Positions 18,320-63,281 of a DNA stretch of 64,000 nucleotides are shown here, one piece after another. The notes beneath the pieces are model-generated. The model was not told the DNA's origin and did no database searches. It worked only from the letters and a program-made list of their open reading frames with translations. Made by a program: the position numbers and the translations under genes. Position 1 is the stretch's first letter; each line of letters begins with the position of its first letter. The stretch is taken from NCBI GenBank assembly GCA_000827205.1, contig KN832559.1, forward strand, positions 433,167 to 497,166, read 5' to 3'. This DNA is from Plicaturopsis crispa FD-325 SS-3 (taxonomy: Eukaryota; Basidiomycota; Agaricomycetes; Amylocorticiales; Amylocorticiaceae).

Positions 18320-20215
18320 ATGTGGAGGCCCGCGACTCGTCAAATTACGGGAACCAACGAAGGTGCGTTTGCTGTAGACTTGGATCTGTACTGTTTTTTT
18401 CTCATTCAAATCGCACCTGTAGTTCCTCTGGGATCCCGCCGTCGTTTTGGCCCCGCTCCTGCTGAAGAGAGTGCGCCCCCTCAGCTCGCCCAGCCTTCTC
18501 CCTCCGTTTATCCTCGCCAGCCCGCTCACAACGATCAAGAAAGCCCTAAGCGGGGGAGAGATGACTCTCCCGTCACTCTAGATGCTCAAGGTAAGCCAGA
18601 TGTTACGATTATTGACCTTACGGCCAGCTCCCTTCTTTCCTTCGCTATCGAGATCCTACAGCAGCCTTGCAAGGTCCTCTATACCCTTTGCGCGTAGTTG
18701 GCGGGCTCGAATTATACCCTTATTCACTAACACTGACCATCTTACTAACCCTAACCAATTGTGCTTCGTGGCCTATTTTCAGCTGACCCTAATGCCCCCC
18801 GGAAGCGTCGTAGTCGCTGGGGCGAAGCCAAGACAGAGATCCCTGGCCTTCCTACTGCAATTTCTGCTACTGGTGTCTCACAAGCTCAACTGGACAACTA
18901 TGCTATCCATCTCCGCCTCGAAGAAATCAACCGCAAACTCAGACTAAATGACTTCGTACCTCCGGAGCGCGAAAGGTGGGACAATAATCTTATGCCTTCG
19001 ACACAACACTGACGACGTCCTTCATAGGTCGGCTTCCCCGCCTCCTACCTACGATGCTCACGGTCGCAGGACCAACACTCGCGAAGTTCGCTACCGCAAA
19101 AAACTTGAAGACGAACGCATTAGACTTGTTGACCGTGCCATGAAAAATGACCCCAACTTCCGCCCTCCTGTCGAATATCACCAACAAAAACGCTCACAGC
19201 GACCTTCCGAAAAGGTCTACATCCCCGTGAAAGAGTTCCCCGAAATCAACTTCTTCGGTCTCCTTGTCGGCCCTCGCGGTAACAGCTTGAAGAAAATGGA
19301 AAGGGAAAGCGGTGCGAAGATCAGCATTCGTGGCAAAGGGAGCGTCAAGGAGGGCAAGAATAGGCCTGATCAGTTTGCAGACGATGCTGAAGAGGACCTT
19401 CATTGTCTTGTCCTTGGCGAAACTGAAGAGAAAGTTGCTACATGCGTTAAGCTGATCAACAGGGTCATCGAAACTGTAAGTACCTTCTCTCCTACCGCGT
19501 GTCGATTCTAACTCGTTCATGTATGCAGGCCGCTTCCACTCCTGAAGGTCAGAATGATCATAAACGTAACCAACTCCGTGAACTTGCAGCCTTGAACGGT
19601 ACACTTCGTGACGACGAAAACCAAATCTGCCAGAACTGTGGCGGCGTCGGCCATCGCAAATATGACTGCCCAGAACAACGTAACTTCACCGCTAACATCA
19701 TCTGTCGAGTCTGTGGCAGCGCTGGACACATGGCACGCGACTGTACCGTCAACCGCGATCCCAACGCTCCTCCTCCCGCCCTAGGAGGACCATCCCCACC
19801 CATGAACAAGGGTGGGTTCGACTCGGAGTATGCTAGCTTGATGGCGGAGCTTGGAGAAGGCGGTAAAGGTCTCGGTGGAGATGCCGGGAAGACTCCGTGG
19901 GCGGGCTCTGGTGCTGGACATGACATCACCGCAGGTGGATCGAACATTCCTCCATGGCGTCGTCCCGAGGTTTGGCAAACCAACCCGAACCCCCAGCAAC
20001 AGCAAGGCGGCTACAGACCACCGCAGGCGGGCTATGGTGGAGGGTACGGCGGTGCCCCCGCTGGGTATGGTGCCGCTGGCGCTTCGCAATGGAGTGCGCA
20101 AGGCTATCCCCAGGCCGCCGGCTATCCTCAGCAACCACAGGATTACTCAGCTCAATATGCACAGTACTATCAAAGCCAATACGCGCAACAGCAGGACGTC
20201 GGCGCGCAGCGTTGA
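18320..20215 (+). CDS. BBP: Branchpoint-binding protein (SF1/BBP) splicing factor
   Basis: Recognises the intron branch site during early spliceosome assembly in the nucleus. Order of parts: a short first exon [14 protein letters not shown]; a linker with [20 protein letters not shown], which matches the U2AF-binding ULM and SF1 helix-hairpin area; the KH/QUA2 domain ([20 protein letters not shown], with a GPRG loop); two CCHC zinc knuckles ([14 protein letters not shown] and [14 protein letters not shown]); and a Gly/Tyr/Gln/Pro-rich tail ending at 20213. An intron of about 190 nt at 18592-18782, long for this window, contains a perfect TACTAAC at 18743-18749, the sequence this protein family binds best. 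All binding modules are present. Confidence 0.96.
18743..18749 (+). promoter_or_regulatory. Perfect TACTAAC branch site in a BBP intron
   Basis: The heptamer lies about 33 nt before the acceptor of the intron at about 18592-18782, within the gene for the branch-site binding protein itself. A branch site is expected here; the exact yeast-like consensus is less usual among this window's introns, which mostly show looser CTNAC forms. Confidence 0.6.
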
Positions 20216-20726: not shown

Positions 20727-22682
20727 TTATGTCCGTTTCGCTTTATTTGACATCTTCTTCCTTTTCCGACTGCCCGTGCCAGTGGTTGAGCGCTCAGCTA
20801 CTTCCCCTTCTGTCGCTTCATCCGCCTTGCGTTTCCCCTCTTTGACCATTCCTCCCGTCATTTTGAGGTCGCCTTTGACAAAACACGAGACAAAGAACCC
20901 GTTCGTTGCATCGTCGCCTGGGGAACACCGCACCAGGGACGAGGCATCTCCTGAAAGTCAACAATCAGGGGGGAAGGTTTGGGGTCAGAGTGGCATTTTT
21001 AGACGAACCTGCGTTACTCATTTCTTCGGTCAATCCCCGACGTTTCCATGCCGGTAGAACATCGCTCCTAGGGGCGAGAACGAAATGCGCTGCCCGCGCT
21101 TCTTCGGATTCCAGAGCTTGACGAACAACCTGCTCGTTCTCCGTTGCGTGTATACTGCAGGTCGAATAGACGATCTTTATCACCGCTGGAACTAGGGCCA
21201 GGCATCAGTGAGATGCGGCACATCGGGGCTAAGAAACGCGTACATTTCATCGCATGCTTGACCATCATCAGCTGAAAAGCGGCGAGCTTGTTCAACCGCT
21301 CTTCCTGAGCCGAATCATTTTCTTCTTCTTCTGTTCAGGGAAGTCAGACCTCATTAGCGGTGGGAGGGTGAAGAAAGGGTGAATGCGACATGTACCTGTA
21401 TCGACCAAATAATCTAGCCGGTTGACTATTCCTGAACCACTGTTTCGCACCGAAATGTCACGACTTAACGGTTGAATATTTTGCATTCCGCCTTACCTAC
21501 ACGACGGATCTAAAAGGCTATGAAAGGTGATGAGCGCGCTCAAAAGTGAGAAGATCAGGCGCTTACATGTGCGTTAACGTGGAGAACTGTGGGTCCAGGG
21601 GGTTGACCGCGAGGAAATCGACATTTAAGCACTCGACATTTCTGCAATGAGCTTTGGACAGCATCATTTTCAATGTGGAAAACCGCTTTCGGTCGCGTTC
21701 AAAAGCGAACACCTATTACTTGGCGGGGTATGGCACGGTCAGCTAGCTGCACAGATATTGCCAAAGATTCTCACTTTTCCCTTGTTATGCATGAGAGCGC
21801 TGATATGGGATGTCTTGTTGCCGGGCGCAGCCGTAGCGTCGAGAACGACACTGGAATCTTCCGACGGCGGAGCAAGCACAACGGCAGGGAAACACGAGGC
21901 TTTGTCCTGAAGGATGATTTTACCCGCCTTGTACGCTGAATCATCGTGAAACTGTGTTTGCGGAGAGAAAAGAAGCAGATTGGGAATGTGTTCATCTTTC
22001 GAGAATCCTTTGCTGTGAGGAATAGGCGAGACTGAGCGAATCGATTACTAGGGGGATGAGGAAAAGGAGTTTCTTACTCGGACTCAAACGGCCCCGTAAG
22101 CTGGAAGCCTCTGGATATATACCACTTTACGGCATCCTCCGTTGTCCAGACCGCGGTGTTCACTCGCACGTAACGAGGAATTCGTACTGATTTGTGGAGT
22201 GAGCGTAGAGAACCCACGAAACTTTGAAGACGCCCACCTGCCCTCTCGTCCCCCACCTGCGCGAGTTCGCTATTAGACCTAGCTCCGCGTTTGATCTTGA
22301 TCTTCTGGAGTTCGCCGTTTAAGCGAGCTCTGTGACGCAGGACGCCTTGTTTGATAGGACCATCGCCAGCCTGAATACCGCCGGCCAGAAGTAGGTCATG
22401 GACCAGGACGAGCGCCAAGTTCATGGACGTTATCTTCTTCTCCTCCTTCAACAACTTTGCCAGGACTATCACATCGCTTAGCACGGATTTATCTAGAAGT
22501 GAGTGTGTCAGCTCAATCTTCTGGGCGACGGCGACCTGCATCTCACATTTGAGGGTCTCAATGACCAGCGCAGCAGTTCTCTTGCGATCTTTTTCTGGTA
22601 GGGTGGCTAAGACCCCTTTAATTGACCCTTGCTTTGCATCCAGGCGGTCAAGAGTCTTTGCAGCCTCGAAATAAAAGTTCAT
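20727..22682 (-). CDS. RCM1: 25S/28S rRNA cytosine-C5 methyltransferase (NSUN5/Rcm1 type)
   Basis: A nucleolar SAM-dependent RNA m5C methyltransferase. Yeast Rcm1 and human NSUN5 modify one cytosine in the large-subunit rRNA. The N-terminus MNFYFEAAKTLDRLDAKQGS and the next helices match NSUN5. Further parts are RYVRVNT, the SAM-binding loop VVLDATAAPGNKTSH, the motif IV cysteine loop LLDPSCSGSGIVNRL (near 21440) and the catalytic motif VI IVYSTCSIHATENE (near 21170). A Lys/Arg-rich tail (GSRKRKKMSNKAKRT) looks like a nucleolar signal. Both cysteines used by this enzyme class are present. Introns are short. The start is 532 bp from the divergent DnaJ gene. Confidence 0.93.
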
Positions 22683-23213: not shown

Positions 23214-25137
23214 AGTGAGCATCCGTAACGTATTATGTGCCACTGACGTTGCTAACTACTTTGTTCTCGTAGTGGCCGTCGAAACTGAGCTATATGATAT
23301 CCTTGGAGTTTCCCCGGATGCCAGCGAAGGTGACGCGTAGCGCCGAACGTGTCACGACCGACTCACTGACAGGATCTTGTCGCAGGCGATATAAAGAAGG
23401 CGTATCGGCAGAAGGTGCTTGGACTCCCCTCACAGTCATAGGTCAATATCTCACTACGTTACAGGCTAAGGAACACCACCCGGTATGTACCTTGGACATA
23501 TGCGCGGAATGACTGAGTAATCATCACTAACATGGTGCTTGTAATAGGACAAAGTACGTGCAGGGTCTTTGCTATAACCTCTACTGCTCCTCATATTCGA
23601 TGTAGAACCCGAATGACCCAAATGCAGGCACGAAATTCCAAGAGATCGGGGCTGCGTACGTCCTTCGTAGCTTATGGGCATTTTACGCGTCTGATTGTCT
23701 TCCAGATATGAGGTTTTGAGCGACGGCAACTCTAGGCATATCTATGATACCTCGGGTATAGATGGGCTTGCAGGGAGGAGCGGGCCTGCAGGAATGGATC
23801 CTGCAGATCTGTTCGCCGAGTTCTTCGGCGGAGGCCCAGCAGGGGGTGGCATGTTTGGGTTTGACTTTGGTCATGCAGGTGGTGGGGCCGGTCGTCGACG
23901 AAAGGGGCAAGATTCTGTGATCCCATACGAAGTCTCGCTGGAGGACCTGTACAACGGGAAACACGTCCGGATGAACATGGAGAAGGAGATAGTGTGTGGG
24001 ACATGCAAAGGGTATGCTTCGACTGACCAGCTCCGTGCGACTCCGCTCAACGGTTTTGCTCTAGGACCGGTGCACGGGGGAACGCAAAACCAAAAGAGTG
24101 CGTTAAGTGCACAGGTAAAGGATGGACGTATATTCAGACGCAGGTTCGTCTCATATACCCTTTTGCTGAGTAGCTCTTCTTCAATAATCCTTCTCGAGCA
24201 GATGGGCCCTGGGAGGATGGGAACATCAAGAATAGCGTGCCCGGAGTGTGGGGGTGAAGGTGAAAAACTCAGAGAAAAAGACAGGTATTTCGAGTCTTTG
24301 GGTCATTTCTTCGGACGTGACTTCTAACATTTTGCAGGTGTAAAAAGTGCAAAGGAGAAAAGACTGTCAAGGAAAAGACACGGCAAGAAATTTTCGTCGA
24401 AAAGGGCATGTCGGATCGTCAGCGAATCGTCCTTGCGGGTGAAGGTGACCAGGAGGTATTTGCAGCGTCGCTAGGTTGTGTTATAATGACTAACTGCCGC
24501 TCAGCCTGGTGTTCCCCCCGGCGATGTGGTCTTCGCCCTGAAGGCTGAAGCCCACGAGTCCTTTGAACGCTCTGGTAATGACTTGCTTACGCACGTCGAT
24601 ATCACACTTTCCGAGGCCCTTCTCGGATTCTCGCGTATCCTGATAACTCATCTGGATGGTCGAGGTATACACGTCGCAAGCCCGCCGGGCAAGATCATGA
24701 AAGCTGGGGACTCGATTGTACTTCGCGGTGAAGGCATGCCCATATACAAGCGCCCAGATGAAAAAGGAGACCTGTACATCGTCTTCGATATCGAGATGCC
24801 CGACGAGCAGTGGCTACAAAGCATTGATCGCAAGGTGAGCGCCCCGTCTACCTCAACCTCGCTGCTCTCTAATATTTTCTCCTCATTGTCCCAGGCTCTC
24901 GAGTCTCTGCTGCCGCCCAAGAAAGAGGAGGTGGAACCTCGGCCAGAGATAGTAGACGAAGCAAAGTTCGAGGAGTCTGATACTGTGGATGTGCGTTCAC
25001 GGTCTTTCCCGGCTAGTTCGGACTTCTTTGATCGCGGCTTCTCGCAGTTCGGTGAAGCAGAGGACGACTGGGAAGATGAACACGACGACGACGATCCCTA
25101 CGGCGAGGGCGCGCAGCCAGAATGCCAACCACAATGA
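23214..25137 (+). CDS. Class A J-domain co-chaperone (DnaJ/Ydj1-Xdj1 type)
   Basis: Stimulates Hsp70 ATPase and delivers unfolded clients. Parts in order: J-domain (MAVETELYDILGVSPDASEG, IKKAYRQK, AKEHHPDKNPNDPNA, YEVLSD); a Gly-rich segment with FGGGPAGGGMFGFDFG; substrate domain I; four zinc-binding repeats (CGTCKGTG, CVKCTGKG, CPECGGEG, CKKCKGEK); and domain II with a GDLYIVFDIEMP end. The C-terminus is acidic and ends PECQPQ, so it lacks the CAAX prenylation box of Ydj1 and looks nearer Xdj1. The start codon appears to be split by an intron: A at 23214 joins TG at 23273, and the codon directly before it is TAA. The HPDK motif needs a 6-nt exon at 23548-23553. Many very short exons precede the Gly-rich region. 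Confidence 0.93.
23215..23272 (+). other. Intron inside the DnaJ start codon
   Basis: A 58-nt GT-AG intron with donor GTGAGC, a GCTAAC branch-like site and acceptor CTCGTAG. It separates the A from the TG of the initiator. Spliced mRNA reads TAA-ATG-GCC-GTC, so translation cannot begin farther upstream in that frame, and no other ATG precedes the J-domain in frame. Confidence 0.75.
23548..23553 (+). other. Six-nucleotide microexon (GACAAA) in the DnaJ gene
   Basis: This exon encodes only Asp-Lys. The left intron 23483-23547 has donor GTATGT and acceptor AATAG; the right intron 23554-23605 has donor GTACGT and acceptor TGTAG. Without it HHP would join NPND and the invariant HPD tripeptide, which is needed for Hsp70 stimulation, would be lost. 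Confidence 0.8.
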
Positions 25138-50671: not shown

Positions 50672-53600
50672 ATGGCGGCAGAAAAGAGACTCTACTATTG
50701 CGATTGTGCTCGTTTTTGCCATTCCATACGGCAACCTGTTTCTTACAGTTCGCTGAAACGGCATAGGCCGTTCCTTTCACATTCTATCGAATTCTCCCAG
50801 TTTGTTGCATCTAACTCGGCCAACTCATCTGCGCCATCGGGATCGGGGATAAATGTACCACAAGCAGGTCCTAATGCAGATTCGTCAACTGCGGGGATCG
50901 GCGGCGCTCACGATGGGCACCTCCCGCCGCTGGATCGGCTGGATCAGTATTATGAGGATGAGGGTGGAGGAGGTGGAGATCAGATGGACACGGAGCCGCT
51001 CCGAGAATCGATGGTGAGTCCTTGCTCGTACTTGTGCTTTGCGTGTTCTAATTTATACCGGTGTAGTCTCCGCCCAACGATCGAAGTCCTTCACCCTTGA
51101 ATCGCAGCCGTAGTGCTTCCAGGGATAGAGGTGGCAATGAGCCCGAGCAGGGTGGAGACCGCGTTCCTGGTCATGGTGCCGCAGCGTCGGCAGCGTCTGC
51201 CTCTGCGGATCTTGAGGCCGATGCGGCAGCAGGTCGCGGACCACCAAGCGATGTCCCAGAGATAGAAGATATCCGAATCACAAACCAATTCATTGATTTA
51301 TTGAAGCATGCATCGCTCGATGACGGGGTTGAGGGCCTCGATCCGGAAACCATTGAACTCCTACGACACCCTGTCGAGCATACACTTGATGTAGATGATC
51401 CAGACCTCCGCCTCTCCATCGACCTCTTTTTAGCGGCTACGACTGCCTCGCAGGCAACCTACATTGCCACCCGTGCAGCCATCCTTCGCCGCCACCCTGA
51501 ATCTACCGTCCTCTCTTTCGACCAAGTTAAGCGGCGCATTGCCCTACTCAGCGGTGTGTATCCCCTCGTTCACGATATGTGTCCGAAAACATGCATTGCG
51601 TACACCGGTCCATTTGCGGAGCTTGAGTCATGCCCCAAATGTTCCCAGCCACGGTACGACCCGATTACGCTGGAGACCTCCCAGAAGAAAATCCCGCGAC
51701 AACAATTTTACACGCTGCCTCTCGGCCCTCAGCTACAGGCGTTGTGGCGCAGCCCTGAGAGCGCTCGTAACATCAAATATCTCGATCATCGCGTGAAGGA
51801 GCTCGTGCAAGAGCTCTTGCACAATGACGGGCAACTCGAGACGTACGATGATTTCTGTACAGGGAGTGACTTCCTCGACGCAGTGCTCGACAAAAAAATA
51901 AAGTCCGGTGACATGGTGCTCCTGATATCCATGGATGGTGCGCAGCTGTACCGAAACAAGACATCGGACTGTTGGATCTATATCTGGGTCATTTTGAATC
52001 ATGCTCCTGATGTGCGCTACAAGAAAAAATATGTTCTACCTGGCGGCTTCATTCCAGGTCCCGACAATCCCAAGCACGTTGATTCATTTTTGTTCCCCGG
52101 CCTTCACCATCTCGTCGCCATTCAGAACGAAGGCCTCAAGATATGGGATGCCGATCTCAATCTCACTTTCCCCTCACACCCATTCCTTGCCATCGTGACT
52201 GCCGATGGACCTGGGATGACATATTTTGATGGTTTGGTTGGCCATCAAGGCGCCGCAGGCTGCCGTGTATACTGTGGTCTAAAGGGGCGCCGAAAACCAG
52301 GTGCAAAGTCGTACTATCCAGCCCGTTTGAAGCCCAATGATTATGATGTCGAAGGATGCAATCACGATGATATTCCTTTCGACAACATCTCGCTTCCTTC
52401 GTCCGAGCGCTATCAAAAAAACCTGCGATTACTTCAACGAGTCGCAAATTCCGCACAGTACAAGCGCACTCGGCTTGCTACAGGCATATCAAAACCATCC
52501 ATATTCAGCGGCTTCTCGCCGGAGCGTATTCTCGGAATTCCTGCATGTTTTGGGTCCGATTTAATGCATCTGATCTCCTTGAACATCCCGAGCCTTTTCA
52601 TGGATTTATGGCGCGGAACAATGCCATGCGATGCATCAGACGATGTAGCAACGTGGGATTGGGCTGTTCTACAGGGAGACACCTGGCAGACACACGGACA
52701 AGCAGTCGCCGACGCAACTCCATACCTCCCAGGATCATTTGACCGCCCACCTCGTAATCCGACAGAAAAGATTTCCAGTGGGTACAAAGCCTGGGAGTTT
52801 TTGATTTACTTGTTCGCCCTAGGCCCTGCCCTTTTTTACGGTGTCCTCCCCGAGAAGTACTGGAAGAATTTCTGTCGGCTGGTCTGGGGTGTCCGCCTTA
52901 TACATCAGCGTAGCATAACCGCACAAGAACTTGGATGGGCACACAAAGCGCTCATGGAGTTCTGCGAGGAGTTTGAGCTCCTTTACTACCAGCGCCGGAC
53001 TGACCGTCTTCACTTTGTTCGGCCCTGTATTCACACGACATCTCATCTCGCCCCAGAAGTTCCCCGTCTAGGCCCTGGCGCTTTCTCGATGCAGTGGGTC
53101 ATGGAACGCACGATCGGAAATCTGGGTGAAGAAATCAAGCAGCCGTCTAATCCCTACGCAAACCTGTCAGAGCGAGGGCTTCGACGTTCACAGATTAATG
53201 CTCTCAAAGCCATGATACCTGATCTTGAGCCGCCGGACAATGTGCTCCCGCGCGGGTGCAAGGATATTGGAGGAGGCTTTGTACTGCTTCGCGCAAAGGA
53301 TACAAGCCTCCGCTTGGTGCGCTTGCCTGAAGGACAGGCCATAAATGCATATCTGGAAGGTGCGGGTGTTGCGCGAGCTAACACAGATATGATTCATGTC
53401 GTACGGTGAGTACTTTGAAGTCCTCGAAGTCATTACTGCTGTATACAGCTCACACTCGACTGCATGCATGTAGATGGGCACGGCTTCGACTTCCTAACGG
53501 ACAAATCGCGCGCTCTGCGTGGAAAGAAAAGTTGAAGCCGTTGGAAAAATGCCGGATGTCAAGAAACGTGAAGGTATTAATTCGACGGCGTGCACACCAT

Positions 53601-54232: not shown

Positions 54233-57200
54233 ATGGGTACACTGGATTATATGACCTCTGGGTTCACTGGCTCTCTGGGTCTTCCACCGGGTTCATCCCG
54301 GTACAACAGCCCTACAGTATCGAACTCGAGTGGCAGGTTATCATACCGACACGGCATGCAGCCATTTGGCTCAGCCCCGGCAAGTCGAAGTCATTCACGC
54401 TCCAGCTCTGGTGCCTATACCAGTAGCTCTCTTGAGGATCTAGGCGACAACGAATACACTGGCGGCAGTAGTGGCGACGGAATACTACGGCCTCAGTCTG
54501 ACCATTACACTGAGCAAACAGGTGCTCCTTGGACATCGGTAAGCATTGGACATGCTTTCTATCTGGCCAGCTTCGTTGAGCATTTGATTCTCAAGAGTGC
54601 TATGTCACGGCTGCCGTCGACACAGGGCGACATCAACAATTCATCGACTTTCATGATGCGGCCGCATTCCCCAGGGGCATACTCCGAACTAGAGCAGCGA
54701 CATAATATAGCTGTTGACGAACTCCGCACAGTTCGACACCAGAATACGGTGCTTCTCGCAAAGCTGGATACATTGCGGTAAGTACTAAGTATGTCAACGA
54801 CAGGCTCAGCAACTCACCTCGAATCACAATCTATAGTGACGCATACACGATCCTTGTCAATTCCAAACCGGACGGCCTGTCTAATGCTCTTCATCTCGCC
54901 AATCCGCTAGATCTCCCCATTCCTACTGCACCGCTTGCTCCTCCTCCGAGTCAGAGCCGACTACCCCCTCTCCACCAATCGGACTACCCTCTCGTGAGAT
55001 ACTGGCGTAAAAGGGACTGGACTGCTGAAAAGCAAAATTTGAGTGTCACAGACCCCGACCAGAAGCCTGGTGCGCGAGGAGCTGTACGGGCTTCAAATGG
55101 CGAGAATGTCATGATGCAGTATGTCGAGACTGAGAATGGCCACATGGTGGATGGTTTCCGTGCATCTGATATCAAGTTCGTCGCTCGGCGGATATGGGCA
55201 GAGATGGCGGTGGAATTACAGGGTAATGTCCCGCTGAAATGGAAAAATGTCGGCATCAAGGGTGCAGACCGCTATGCACGGGACATGGCTCTCCATTGCC
55301 CCGAGCTCCGTCTATGCGATTCGGATTGGAAAGCTCATCAGATTGCGACAGATACATATCCGTCATGGAAACATACGTACATCAAGAATCGCAACCAGCA
55401 AACATCTTCTCCTCCTGAGGACGATCAAGCTATGAAAATAGAGCCGTCCAGTGTGGCTATGGATAATGCGCCCTCGATATCTCGTGCTGCCTCTAAAAGG
55501 CCTTCACCCGACGCTTTGGATGCTCATCCCACTGCTGGCCCGAAACGAGCAATGTTGGAATATGCGGCGGTATTGGGTGTGAGACTCGCCACCGTTGCCA
55601 CTTGATCCTAACACATACAAACAACGTCCGTAGAGTTGCGTTCGTCTTTGTACTTACATCCTCTATCCTCTACTATGATGTTCACTCGTTCTCTGTGATA
55701 TCTGGGTCCTCAGGCTTTCCGTGCATCAGTGTCTCTGGGTTATTCCTACAGGTTATTGGGCCCCGCTGCTTCTGCTTGCTGTCTGTGTCATTCTCTGGGT
55801 CTTATCTGCCACATCAGTGCCCATCTACGCCCATCTGTGCCCATCAGTGTCCATCTGAGCTGATCAGAGCCCTTATCTGCGTCCTATCAGTGTCGGTGTG
55901 AGCTGCGTTGAGTGTCTCCGCGCCCGCCATCCCCTATCGGTGTTATCTGTGTTGCGGATCCTATCTGGAGTCTGCCCTTCGTGTGGCTGCATTGGATGAT
56001 TNNNNNNNNNNNNNNNNNNNNNNNNNNNNNNNNNNNNNNNNNNNNNNNNNNNNNNNNNNNNNNNNNNNNNNNNNNNNNNNNNNNNNNNNNNNNNNNNNNN
56101 NNNNNNNNNNNNNNNNNNNNNNNNNNNNNNNNNNNNNNNNNNNNNNNNNNNNNNNNNNNNNNNNNNNNNNNNNNNNNNNNNNNNNNNNNNNNNNNNNNNN
56201 NNNNNNNNNNNNNNNNNNNNNNNNNNNNNNNNNNNNNNNNNNNNNNNNNNNNNNNNNNNNNNNNNNNNNNNNNNNNNNNNNNNNNNNNNNNNNNNNNNNN
56301 NNNNNNNNNNNNNNNNNNNNNNNNNNNNNNNNNNNNNNNNNNNNNNNNNNNNNNNNNNNNNNNNNNNNNNNNNNNNNNNNNNNNNNNNNNNNNNNNNNNN
56401 NNNNNNNNNNNNNNNNNNNNNNNNNNNNNNNNNNNNNNNNNNNNNNNNNNNNNNNNNNNNNNNNNNNNNNNNNNNNNNNNNNNNNNNNNNNNNNNNNNNN
56501 NNNNNNNNNNNNNNNNNNNNNNNNNNNNNNNNNNNNNNNNNNNNNNNNNNNNNNNNNNNNNNNNNNNNNNNNNNNNNNNNNNNNNNNNNNNNNNNNNNNN
56601 NNNNNNNNNNNNNNNNNNNNNNNNNNNNNNNNNNNNNNNNNNNNNNNNNNNNNNNNNNNNNNNNNNNNNNNNNNNNNNNNNNNNNNNNNNNNNNNNNNNN
56701 NNNNNNNNNNNNNNNNNNNNNNNNNNNNNNNNNNNNNNNNNNNNNNNNNNNNNNNNNNNNNNNNNNNNNNNNNNNNNNNNNNNNNNNNNNNNNNNNNNNN
56801 NNNNNNNNNNNNNNCGATCTTTCCATCAGGGGAGTTGATTCATTTTTGTTTGTTTTATTTGTGGACGAAGCATTCTTTTTCTTAGTTTATCTTTCTGCTT
56901 CTCCACATTACCGTTCTTTGTTTCTGGGGGTGTCTTATTCTGGGGGTGCTTCAGAGGGTGTCGAGCCTCAGGGGGTGTGTTGGAATATGCGGCGGTATTG
57001 GGTGTGAGACTCGCCACCGTTGCCACTTGATCCTAACACATACAAACAACGTCCGTAGAGTTGCGTTCGTCTTTGTACTTACATCCTCTATCCTCTACTA
57101 TGATGTTCACTCGTTCTCTGTGATATCTGGGTCCTCAGGCTTTCCGTGCATCAGTGTCTCTGGGTTATTCCTACAAGCAAAGACAGTCCATCCGGTTTCA

Positions 57201-61599: not shown

Positions 61600-63281
61600 T
61601 CACAACGTGTACTGTGGGATCGACGACATGAATGCGGAGAAATCCATATCGAGGCTTGCGAGCTCAGGCTTGCCCGTCATGGAGAAACAGTCCGCCGAGG
61701 AGAAGTCGTTTGGATGGCACTGCGACGGCGCGAAGTCGTATGGCGCATTGTACGCGACGTCGTCGCATGACGCCGACGACGCGCCGTACGTCTCTAGCAT
61801 GGGCGCATCGAGCCCGTCGGACGAGTGGATGTCGAATCCGTCCGACGTCGGGGACGAATGAAGCTGATATGGGTCGTAGCCAAATGCAGGAGTCGTAGGC
61901 GTCATCGGGTAGGGCGGCGAGCTTGGTGCCGAGTATGGTGAAGGGTTAGACGCCCACTCGTTCGCCATGAAGGCTGTGTTAATAGTCAGAGGCACCGGCT
62001 GGTAGCATTGCTGCTGTTCCTGTTGTACGGCGAACATGCCATACTGACTCTGGCCTTCCTGCGTCTGGATGGAGGGGTCGCACGGCGACGGCGTACAGGG
62101 TTCATCGAAGCTGTAGGCATTAAAGTCCTGGATGATGAGGGCGATCAGAACTTGTGCGGAGAAGACGGTGATAGATTAAACGAAGCTAGTTGTGTACTCA
62201 CAAATGAAGGGTCCGGTTTAAGTGAAGGGAATGAATATTCAGCCTGGCTAGCATATGGATTCTGAAATGTGGGATCGTAGAAGACGTCCGAGCTAGAGTC
62301 CGACCCGGCCTGCGAGAACTGGGACTCGGCTTCAGACACAGCAGGGGAAGAATCCCGGGCGGAAGGTGTAGAACGAAGTACGGGACGAGAACTGGAGGCC
62401 CGGGCTCTTCTGGTACGAGGGGCGGCAGCGGCGGGAAGAAACGCGCTCGATTCCTTCTCGTGCTCGGTCTCTGCGACGGGCGCAGATGAGGAGCGGCGGT
62501 ACATGCGTGCGGTGAGAGGGGCCTCGAACCGCGTCACGACCTCCGGTACATGGTGGCGATCGAATTCCTGTATCGCCGCGTCGAGCTCCTGGCCCTTCTT
62601 GCCCTCGACAAGGAGCTCGGCGATCTTCGTACAGCGCTTGAGGTCCTTTGGTCCAACCTCTCTGACTTTGCGCTTCTCCGGCGCCGTATCGCTACCACCG
62701 CCCTTCTTAGGATGAGTAGGACGGAAGGCGTACTGGGGGAAACGGCGCTTGTGGTCGTCGAGGGCGGCCTTGGCCTTGGCGTGCCAGACTGCGCGCTCCT
62801 CAGGAGGAAGATTCTGCCAGGTCAAACCAATGATCTTGGAGAGGGTGCTGTGGTTGGTCTCGACGTCTGTTGAAACGTGCTGGCCCTTGATGAAGGACGA
62901 GCGGAATAGAATGAAAGCGTTCGGTGGGCGGGGGATGTGGTTCTCAGGCTTCTTCTTCGAATGCGTGGGCCTACGGACAGTGGGGCCCGACGCAGTCGAA
63001 TCGCTGGGCGACGAAGGGAAGAGGACCGACTCGGACGGGGAGTTTGGGTACGAGTCGGCCGAGAATGGATCCGAGAACGACACTGGGGTGACATTGGGCG
63101 CGAACGCGATATTGCTGCTCTGCTGAGCGACGGGCTCGACGGGCGCAGTCCACGTCAGCTGGCCCGCTAGAAACATGGCCATGGTCAGAGAAAGCGGGTG
63201 ACCGAGAGTTGTATATCTTATCTCACCGTCAGGCGCACTAGAGCACCGCTTGGAAGCGCGGTATGATCTCTCGGCTGGCAT
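61600..63281 (-). CDS. HMG-box transcription factor
   Basis: A sequence-specific HMG-box regulator of the nucleus. The box begins IPRPPNAFILFRSSFIKGQ and continues LSKIIGLTWQNLPPEERAVW then KAKAALDDHKRRFPQYAFRP. This is the fungal MATA-HMG/Rox1/Prf1 style rather than the non-specific HMGB style. A Lys-rich part follows (KKGGGSDTAPEKRKVRE), then Ser/Pro-rich sequence. After an intron with donor GTGAGT near 62203, the last exon gives DFNAYSFDEPCTPSPCDPS and a Ser/Pro/Tyr/Gln-rich tail ending SSIPQYTL. The start 63281 (MPAERSYRASKR) is chosen, but a 60-nt segment (63226-63167) has GTGAGA...CTAG ends and is a multiple of three without stops, so it may be spliced out or kept. With it retained, MAMFLAGQLTW offers another start. 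Targets unknown; mating or developmental control is possible. Confidence 0.88.

Follow-up and report, generated by a model that had tools for sequence, protein, structure and literature searches.

Human DNAJA2 and yeast Ydj1 (Mas5) are class A Hsp40 proteins, in which a J-domain with an HPD motif is combined with a zinc-finger region and a DnaJ_C domain. Other J-proteins, the type IV or pseudo J-proteins, have an altered HPD that is encoded in the genome (PMC13254874).

Microexons have already been published from fungi, including one that is reported as a switch. In the P450 genes of Phanerochaete chrysosporium exons can be as short as 6 bp, 41 genes contain exons no longer than 29 bp, and introns of 45-55 bp are frequent (PMC1184071). 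The Trichoderma gene Xlr2, for a transcription factor, has a microexon of 20 nt, which is not a multiple of three, supplying two Cys of the Zn2Cys6 domain, and there is RNA evidence of its glucose-dependent use (PMC11121469). Microexons are mentioned merely as an aligner setting in the accessible parts of PMC4014442 and PMC3990503, the latter also reporting exon skipping among Cryptococcus isoforms. For fungal Hsp40 genes, manual correction of the DnaJ models of Coriolopsis trogii involved adding exons and introns (PMC13395996), and 11 introns are given for Lentinula LeHSP40.4 (PMC9858218). In Ganoderma, RNA-seq was better than Iso-Seq at recognising very short exons, and long reads by themselves may therefore mislead (PMC11590231). 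A literature search found no J-domain microexon in fungi named in the titles or abstract openings that it listed, most subscription papers being outside its scope. A recent re-annotation of Coprinopsis cinerea reportedly lists microexons.

The window analysed is a 64,000-nucleotide stretch of the Plicaturopsis crispa FD-325 SS-3 genome sequence. It contains an Hsp40 gene whose model was assembled manually from the sequence and verified to form a single reading frame. The 11 introns of this model are all GT-AG and are 49 to 65 nt in length. The features of the gene that are discussed below are as follows.

23214-25137, plus strand: coding span of the class A Hsp40 (DnaJ-type) gene, with 12 exons and 439 amino acids, HPD being residues 34-36
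23215-23272, plus strand: intron 1, 58 nt, splitting the start codon as A/TG, with a CTAAC branch-like site
23386-23414, plus strand: small exon 3, 29 nt
23465-23482, plus strand: small exon 4, 18 nt, encoding AKEHHP, including His34-Pro35 of HPD
23483-23547, plus strand: intron 4, 65 nt, GTATGT...CTAAC...TAG, present in 8 of 8 open GT-AG structures with HPD
23548-23553, plus strand: microexon 5, GACAAA, 6 nt, encoding Asp36-Lys37, including the Asp of HPD, with GT-AG introns on either side
23554-23605, plus strand: intron 5, 52 nt, GTACGT...TAG, without an exact YTRAY branch-like site
23606-23655, plus strand: exon 6, with AAC (Asn) as its first codon

The predicted product is a class A (type I) Hsp40, having the J-domain with HPD, the zinc-finger region and DnaJ_C. 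In Pfam, the 439-aa protein scores 90.7 bits for the J-domain (PF00226 DnaJ, cut-off 27.8), 48.6 bits for the zinc-finger region (PF00684 DnaJ_CXXCXGXG, cut-off 32.7) and 122.4 bits for the C-terminal client-binding domain (PF01556 DnaJ_C, cut-off 26.6). Its top PDB relative is the human DNAJA2 construct 7zhs (E=1.1e-95), and over the aligned portion after the J-domain it is 49% identical to DNAJA2 and 39% identical to Ydj1. The four zinc motifs start at residues 151, 168, 195 and 211; the fourth is CKKCKGEK, in which the final G is replaced by K, a difference from DNAJA2 and Ydj1 when these are compared as proteins. The protein ends in CQPQ, with a Cys at -4, and in this resembles the C-terminal CaaX of Ydj1. 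These likenesses are drawn at the protein level. In the P. crispa gene the start codon is split by an intron and HPD is divided between an exon of 18 nt and one of 6 nt.

Exons 3, 4 and 5 are three small exons in a row (29, 18 and 6 nt), of which the microexon is the last. The first-pass annotation had described GACAAA at 23548-23553 as a microexon between introns of 65 and 52 nt with GT-AG ends, and these coordinates proved exact. At 6 nt, and with a canonical splice site at each end, it falls within the limit of about 30 nt or less for a microexon. As in the Phanerochaete P450 genes, an exon as small as 6 nt lies among short introns, although those genes belong to another family and no catalytic-loop exon is reported in the accessible parts of that paper (PMC1184071). 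As in Xlr2, a fungal microexon supplies residues essential to a domain, whereas glucose-dependent use in Xlr2 is documented with RNA (PMC11121469) and the P. crispa exon is predicted from its sequence.

All GT-AG structures of 23386-23655 with introns of 40 to 200 nt were enumerated; the remainder of the gene was kept fixed, and zero-length exons were allowed. A total of 1,055 structures were identified, 117 of which are open to the normal stop, and HPD is present in 8 of the 117. All 8 use the intron at 23483-23547 and a small exon beginning at 23548, which is 6 nt in four of them and 10 nt in the other four. Among these 8, the rest of the HPD loop is kept only by the GACAAA structure and by a variant of it whose preceding intron is longer by 6 nt. 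A longer microexon on the 5' side is blocked because its own acceptor holds an in-frame TAG. When the 117 are aligned to the J-domain of human DNAJA2, the GACAAA structure ranks first with a score of 223 and the structure that skips the exon is second with 214. Looser rules, under which a donor may be GC and an intron as short as 28 nt, give 16,497 structures, of which 1,749 are open and 30 have HPD; the GACAAA structure is still first at 223. The claim of the first-pass annotation that the microexon supplies the Asp of HPD is upheld, the predicted structure being the best of the 117 and also of the 1,749. From the reading frame and the domain, the microexon is probably included in mature transcripts.

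Second place under the looser rules is taken by a structure that would draw HPD from a different exon, the 12-nt GACAAAGTACGT with a GC donor at 23560 (HPDKVRNP), which scores 216 against 223. GC-AG sites account for 1.72% in the manually curated Coriolopsis trogii (PMC13395996). However, the 12-nt exon requires a 46-nt intron and a GC donor close to a strong GT donor, and the HPD loop gains two residues. It is extremely unlikely that this or another different exon gives HPD.

Introns 4 and 5 plus the microexon together are 123 nt. When the inside of this stretch was shuffled, the score of 223 was reached in 1 of 400 trials and some open HPD structure arose in 31 of 400. The sequence AG-GAYAAR-GT was found in 92 of 200,000 shuffles of the 123-nt stretch. 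On both strands of the window there are 480 AG-N6-GT sites, two of which enclose GAYAAR, and the summed splice score of the microexon site is matched by none of the others. The fuller pattern, in which HP is followed by a donor and then by an acceptor AG, DK and a second donor, has a single match in the window and no match in 100 shuffles of the whole window.

Splice sites were scored with matrices trained on the other nine introns of the same gene only. The acceptor of the microexon at 23547 (6.9) and its donor at 23554 (8.6) are the best acceptor and the best donor in 23465-23655. The pair needed for skipping is weaker, with a donor of 5.4 and an acceptor of 4.8, and skipping requires an intron of 123 nt, compared with 49-65 nt for the 11 introns of the gene. 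Across the gene region the donor of intron 4 ranks 13th of 121 GT and the acceptor of intron 5 ranks 17th of 126 AG, below the other ten true acceptors. These ranks, together with the lack of an exact YTRAY in intron 5, make reduced splicing efficiency possible. RNA folding of 23465-23655 revealed no notable structure: the native sequence folds less stably than the average shuffle (z = 0.88), and 159 of 200 shuffles equalled or exceeded its stability. Recent intron copying was also considered and there was no sign of it, the top pairwise local score among the 11 introns being 9 with +1/-2 scoring.

It is very probable that GACAAA is a genuine microexon of a functional class A Hsp40 gene and that it is spliced constitutively. 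With introns of 49 to 65 nt, the gene is probably spliced by intron definition, in which each intron is recognised as one unit. Introns 4 and 5 would be excised independently of each other, and the 6-nt exon that separates them would be joined without exon recognition. The mature mRNA would then carry the standard Hsp70-activating loop, HHPDKNP. Any skipping that occurs would be a low-level splicing error yielding an in-frame HPN form. Among coding-region events in Schizophyllum commune, exon skipping makes up 1% and intron retention 43-44%; a separate junction analysis found 1,527 skipping events inside coding regions, and therefore skipping is not absent there (PMC5034255).

If the microexon is skipped, two codons are removed in frame, as the first-pass annotation had stated, and the product is 437 aa with the loop HHPNPNDP. 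HPD becomes HPN because exon 6 begins with AAC. A complete loss of ATPase stimulation has been reported in 2026 for HPN or QPD (PMC13254874), and DnaJ D35N has been called non-functional (PMC7289447). The expectation that the skip form should be unable to stimulate Hsp70 agrees with the loss of ATPase stimulation reported for HPN. In having HPN the hypothetical skip product would be like the pseudo J-proteins (PMC13254874), whereas this gene encodes HPD. The yeast class B HPD mutant Sis1-H34Q dominantly inhibits wild-type Sis1, partly via dimerization and client binding (PMC4199505). A dominant-negative effect of the HPN form on the normal Hsp40 could plausibly occur in the same way; because Sis1 is class B, the extension to a class A protein is only by analogy. 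In the accessible parts of PMC4536325 the dominant negatives are only of Hsp70.

The first-pass annotation had further proposed the exon as a possible switch between active and dominant-negative forms. Conditional skipping would produce a full-length HPN Hsp40 that binds clients and dimerizes with the normal form, yet is dead towards Hsp70 and acts as a dominant negative. The length of the exon, a multiple of three, the open skip product and the behaviour of the HPN, D35N and Sis1-H34Q proteins are consistent with such a switch. The Xlr2 microexon is reported to be switch-like with glucose (PMC11121469), and the Phanerochaete P450 paper proposes that microexons may promote alternative splicing (PMC1184071). 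However, the best local splice sites flank the microexon and so favour inclusion, and exons in coding regions are seldom skipped in S. commune (PMC5034255). An in-frame length has a 1-in-3 chance; in this gene 4 of the 9 exons from 3 to 11 have lengths that are multiples of three, so that an in-frame skip is weak evidence of a switch. Simple skipping is unseen even in Xlr2, where the accessible parts of the paper report no reads joining exons 1 and 3 (PMC11121469). Regulated switching is thus very unlikely, and this part of the first-pass annotation is not supported.

A more elaborate version can be envisaged, in which stress- or stage-regulated skipping makes the microexon an on/off module for Hsp70 stimulation, HPD giving way to HPN in a dimer-forming, client-binding, Hsp70-dead Hsp40. 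The splicing of intron 1 would form a second layer. It creates the start codon, and its failure would lead to a form from Met84 that has no J-domain. After the start, the next in-frame Met of the spliced protein is residue 84, and consequently the J-domain start would be lost if intron 1 were unspliced. This combined scheme is highly unlikely. If true, it would give the first dominant-negative class A Hsp40 to be made by splicing, as far as the literature search shows.

Another form of regulation would act through retention, with intron 4 or 5 kept under stress to give an unproductive transcript that tunes the Hsp40 level, with no inactive form being made. Retention of either intron truncates the protein at 44 aa. 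Retention outnumbers every other event type in S. commune (PMC5034255) and is a major one in Coprinopsis (PMC10532568), and the branch site and acceptor of intron 5 are weak. However, of the 10 introns that the coding sequence fully encloses, 9 truncate the protein when retained, and therefore the effect is not specific to the microexon. Regulation by retention of these two introns is very improbable.

The last intron (24835-24894, 60 nt) is open in frame and is the sole one of these 10 to stay open on retention. If retained, it gives a 459-aa variant with a normal C-terminus.

Two sequence collections were searched for relatives of the gene. In viral_contigs, a search with the Hsp40 protein gave six candidate stretches, all of them J-protein relatives (37-53% identity), with no fungal orthologue. 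A search of the same collection with an alignment gave 126 stretches, none of which are relatives, and searching it with DNA patterns for the microexon gave no match. In genome_contigs, 12 of 24 candidate stretches were confirmed, and since all 12 are titled as bacteria there was again no fungal orthologue.

Ten neighbouring frames, hand-picked among the 250 open frames of at least 90 aa, were scanned. At 18948-20212, two adjoining open frames match the SF1/BBP branch-point-binding splicing factor, one with SF1-HH and KH and the other with zinc knuckles. They are probably one gene, on the same strand as the Hsp40 gene and about 3 kb upstream of it. A divergent NSUN5-like open frame (rRNA methyltransferase family) is found at 22077-22682. 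Its start and the start codon of the Hsp40 gene are about 530 bp apart, and the two genes may therefore share a promoter region. Further away are an open frame of 780 aa that matches a tnp2 transposase (Transposase_21) at 51067-53406 and an HMG-box protein on the minus strand at 62148-63281. Positions 56002-56814 are a run of 813 N, either an assembly gap or a withheld stretch, which probably accounts for the low GC of the 56-60 kb bin.

The microexon also has consequences for annotation. For the Pfam J-domain, the full protein that includes the microexon has 90.7 bits, and a 95-aa fragment of the skip form, which reads HPN, still has 81.8. A gene-prediction program that overlooked the microexon would probably report a plausible but false HPN 'pseudo-J-protein'. 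Because the form without the exon is open (437 aa) and a fragment of it still scores as a J-domain, some of the fungal J-proteins lacking HPD may be annotation errors.

Were the exon regulated, it would represent control of Hsp70 through alternative splicing of the catalytic aspartate. If, as is favoured here, the microexon is constitutive, this gene would be a natural case for the faithful splicing of a near-minimal exon between two short introns, in which loss of the microexon would inactivate a conserved chaperone motif.
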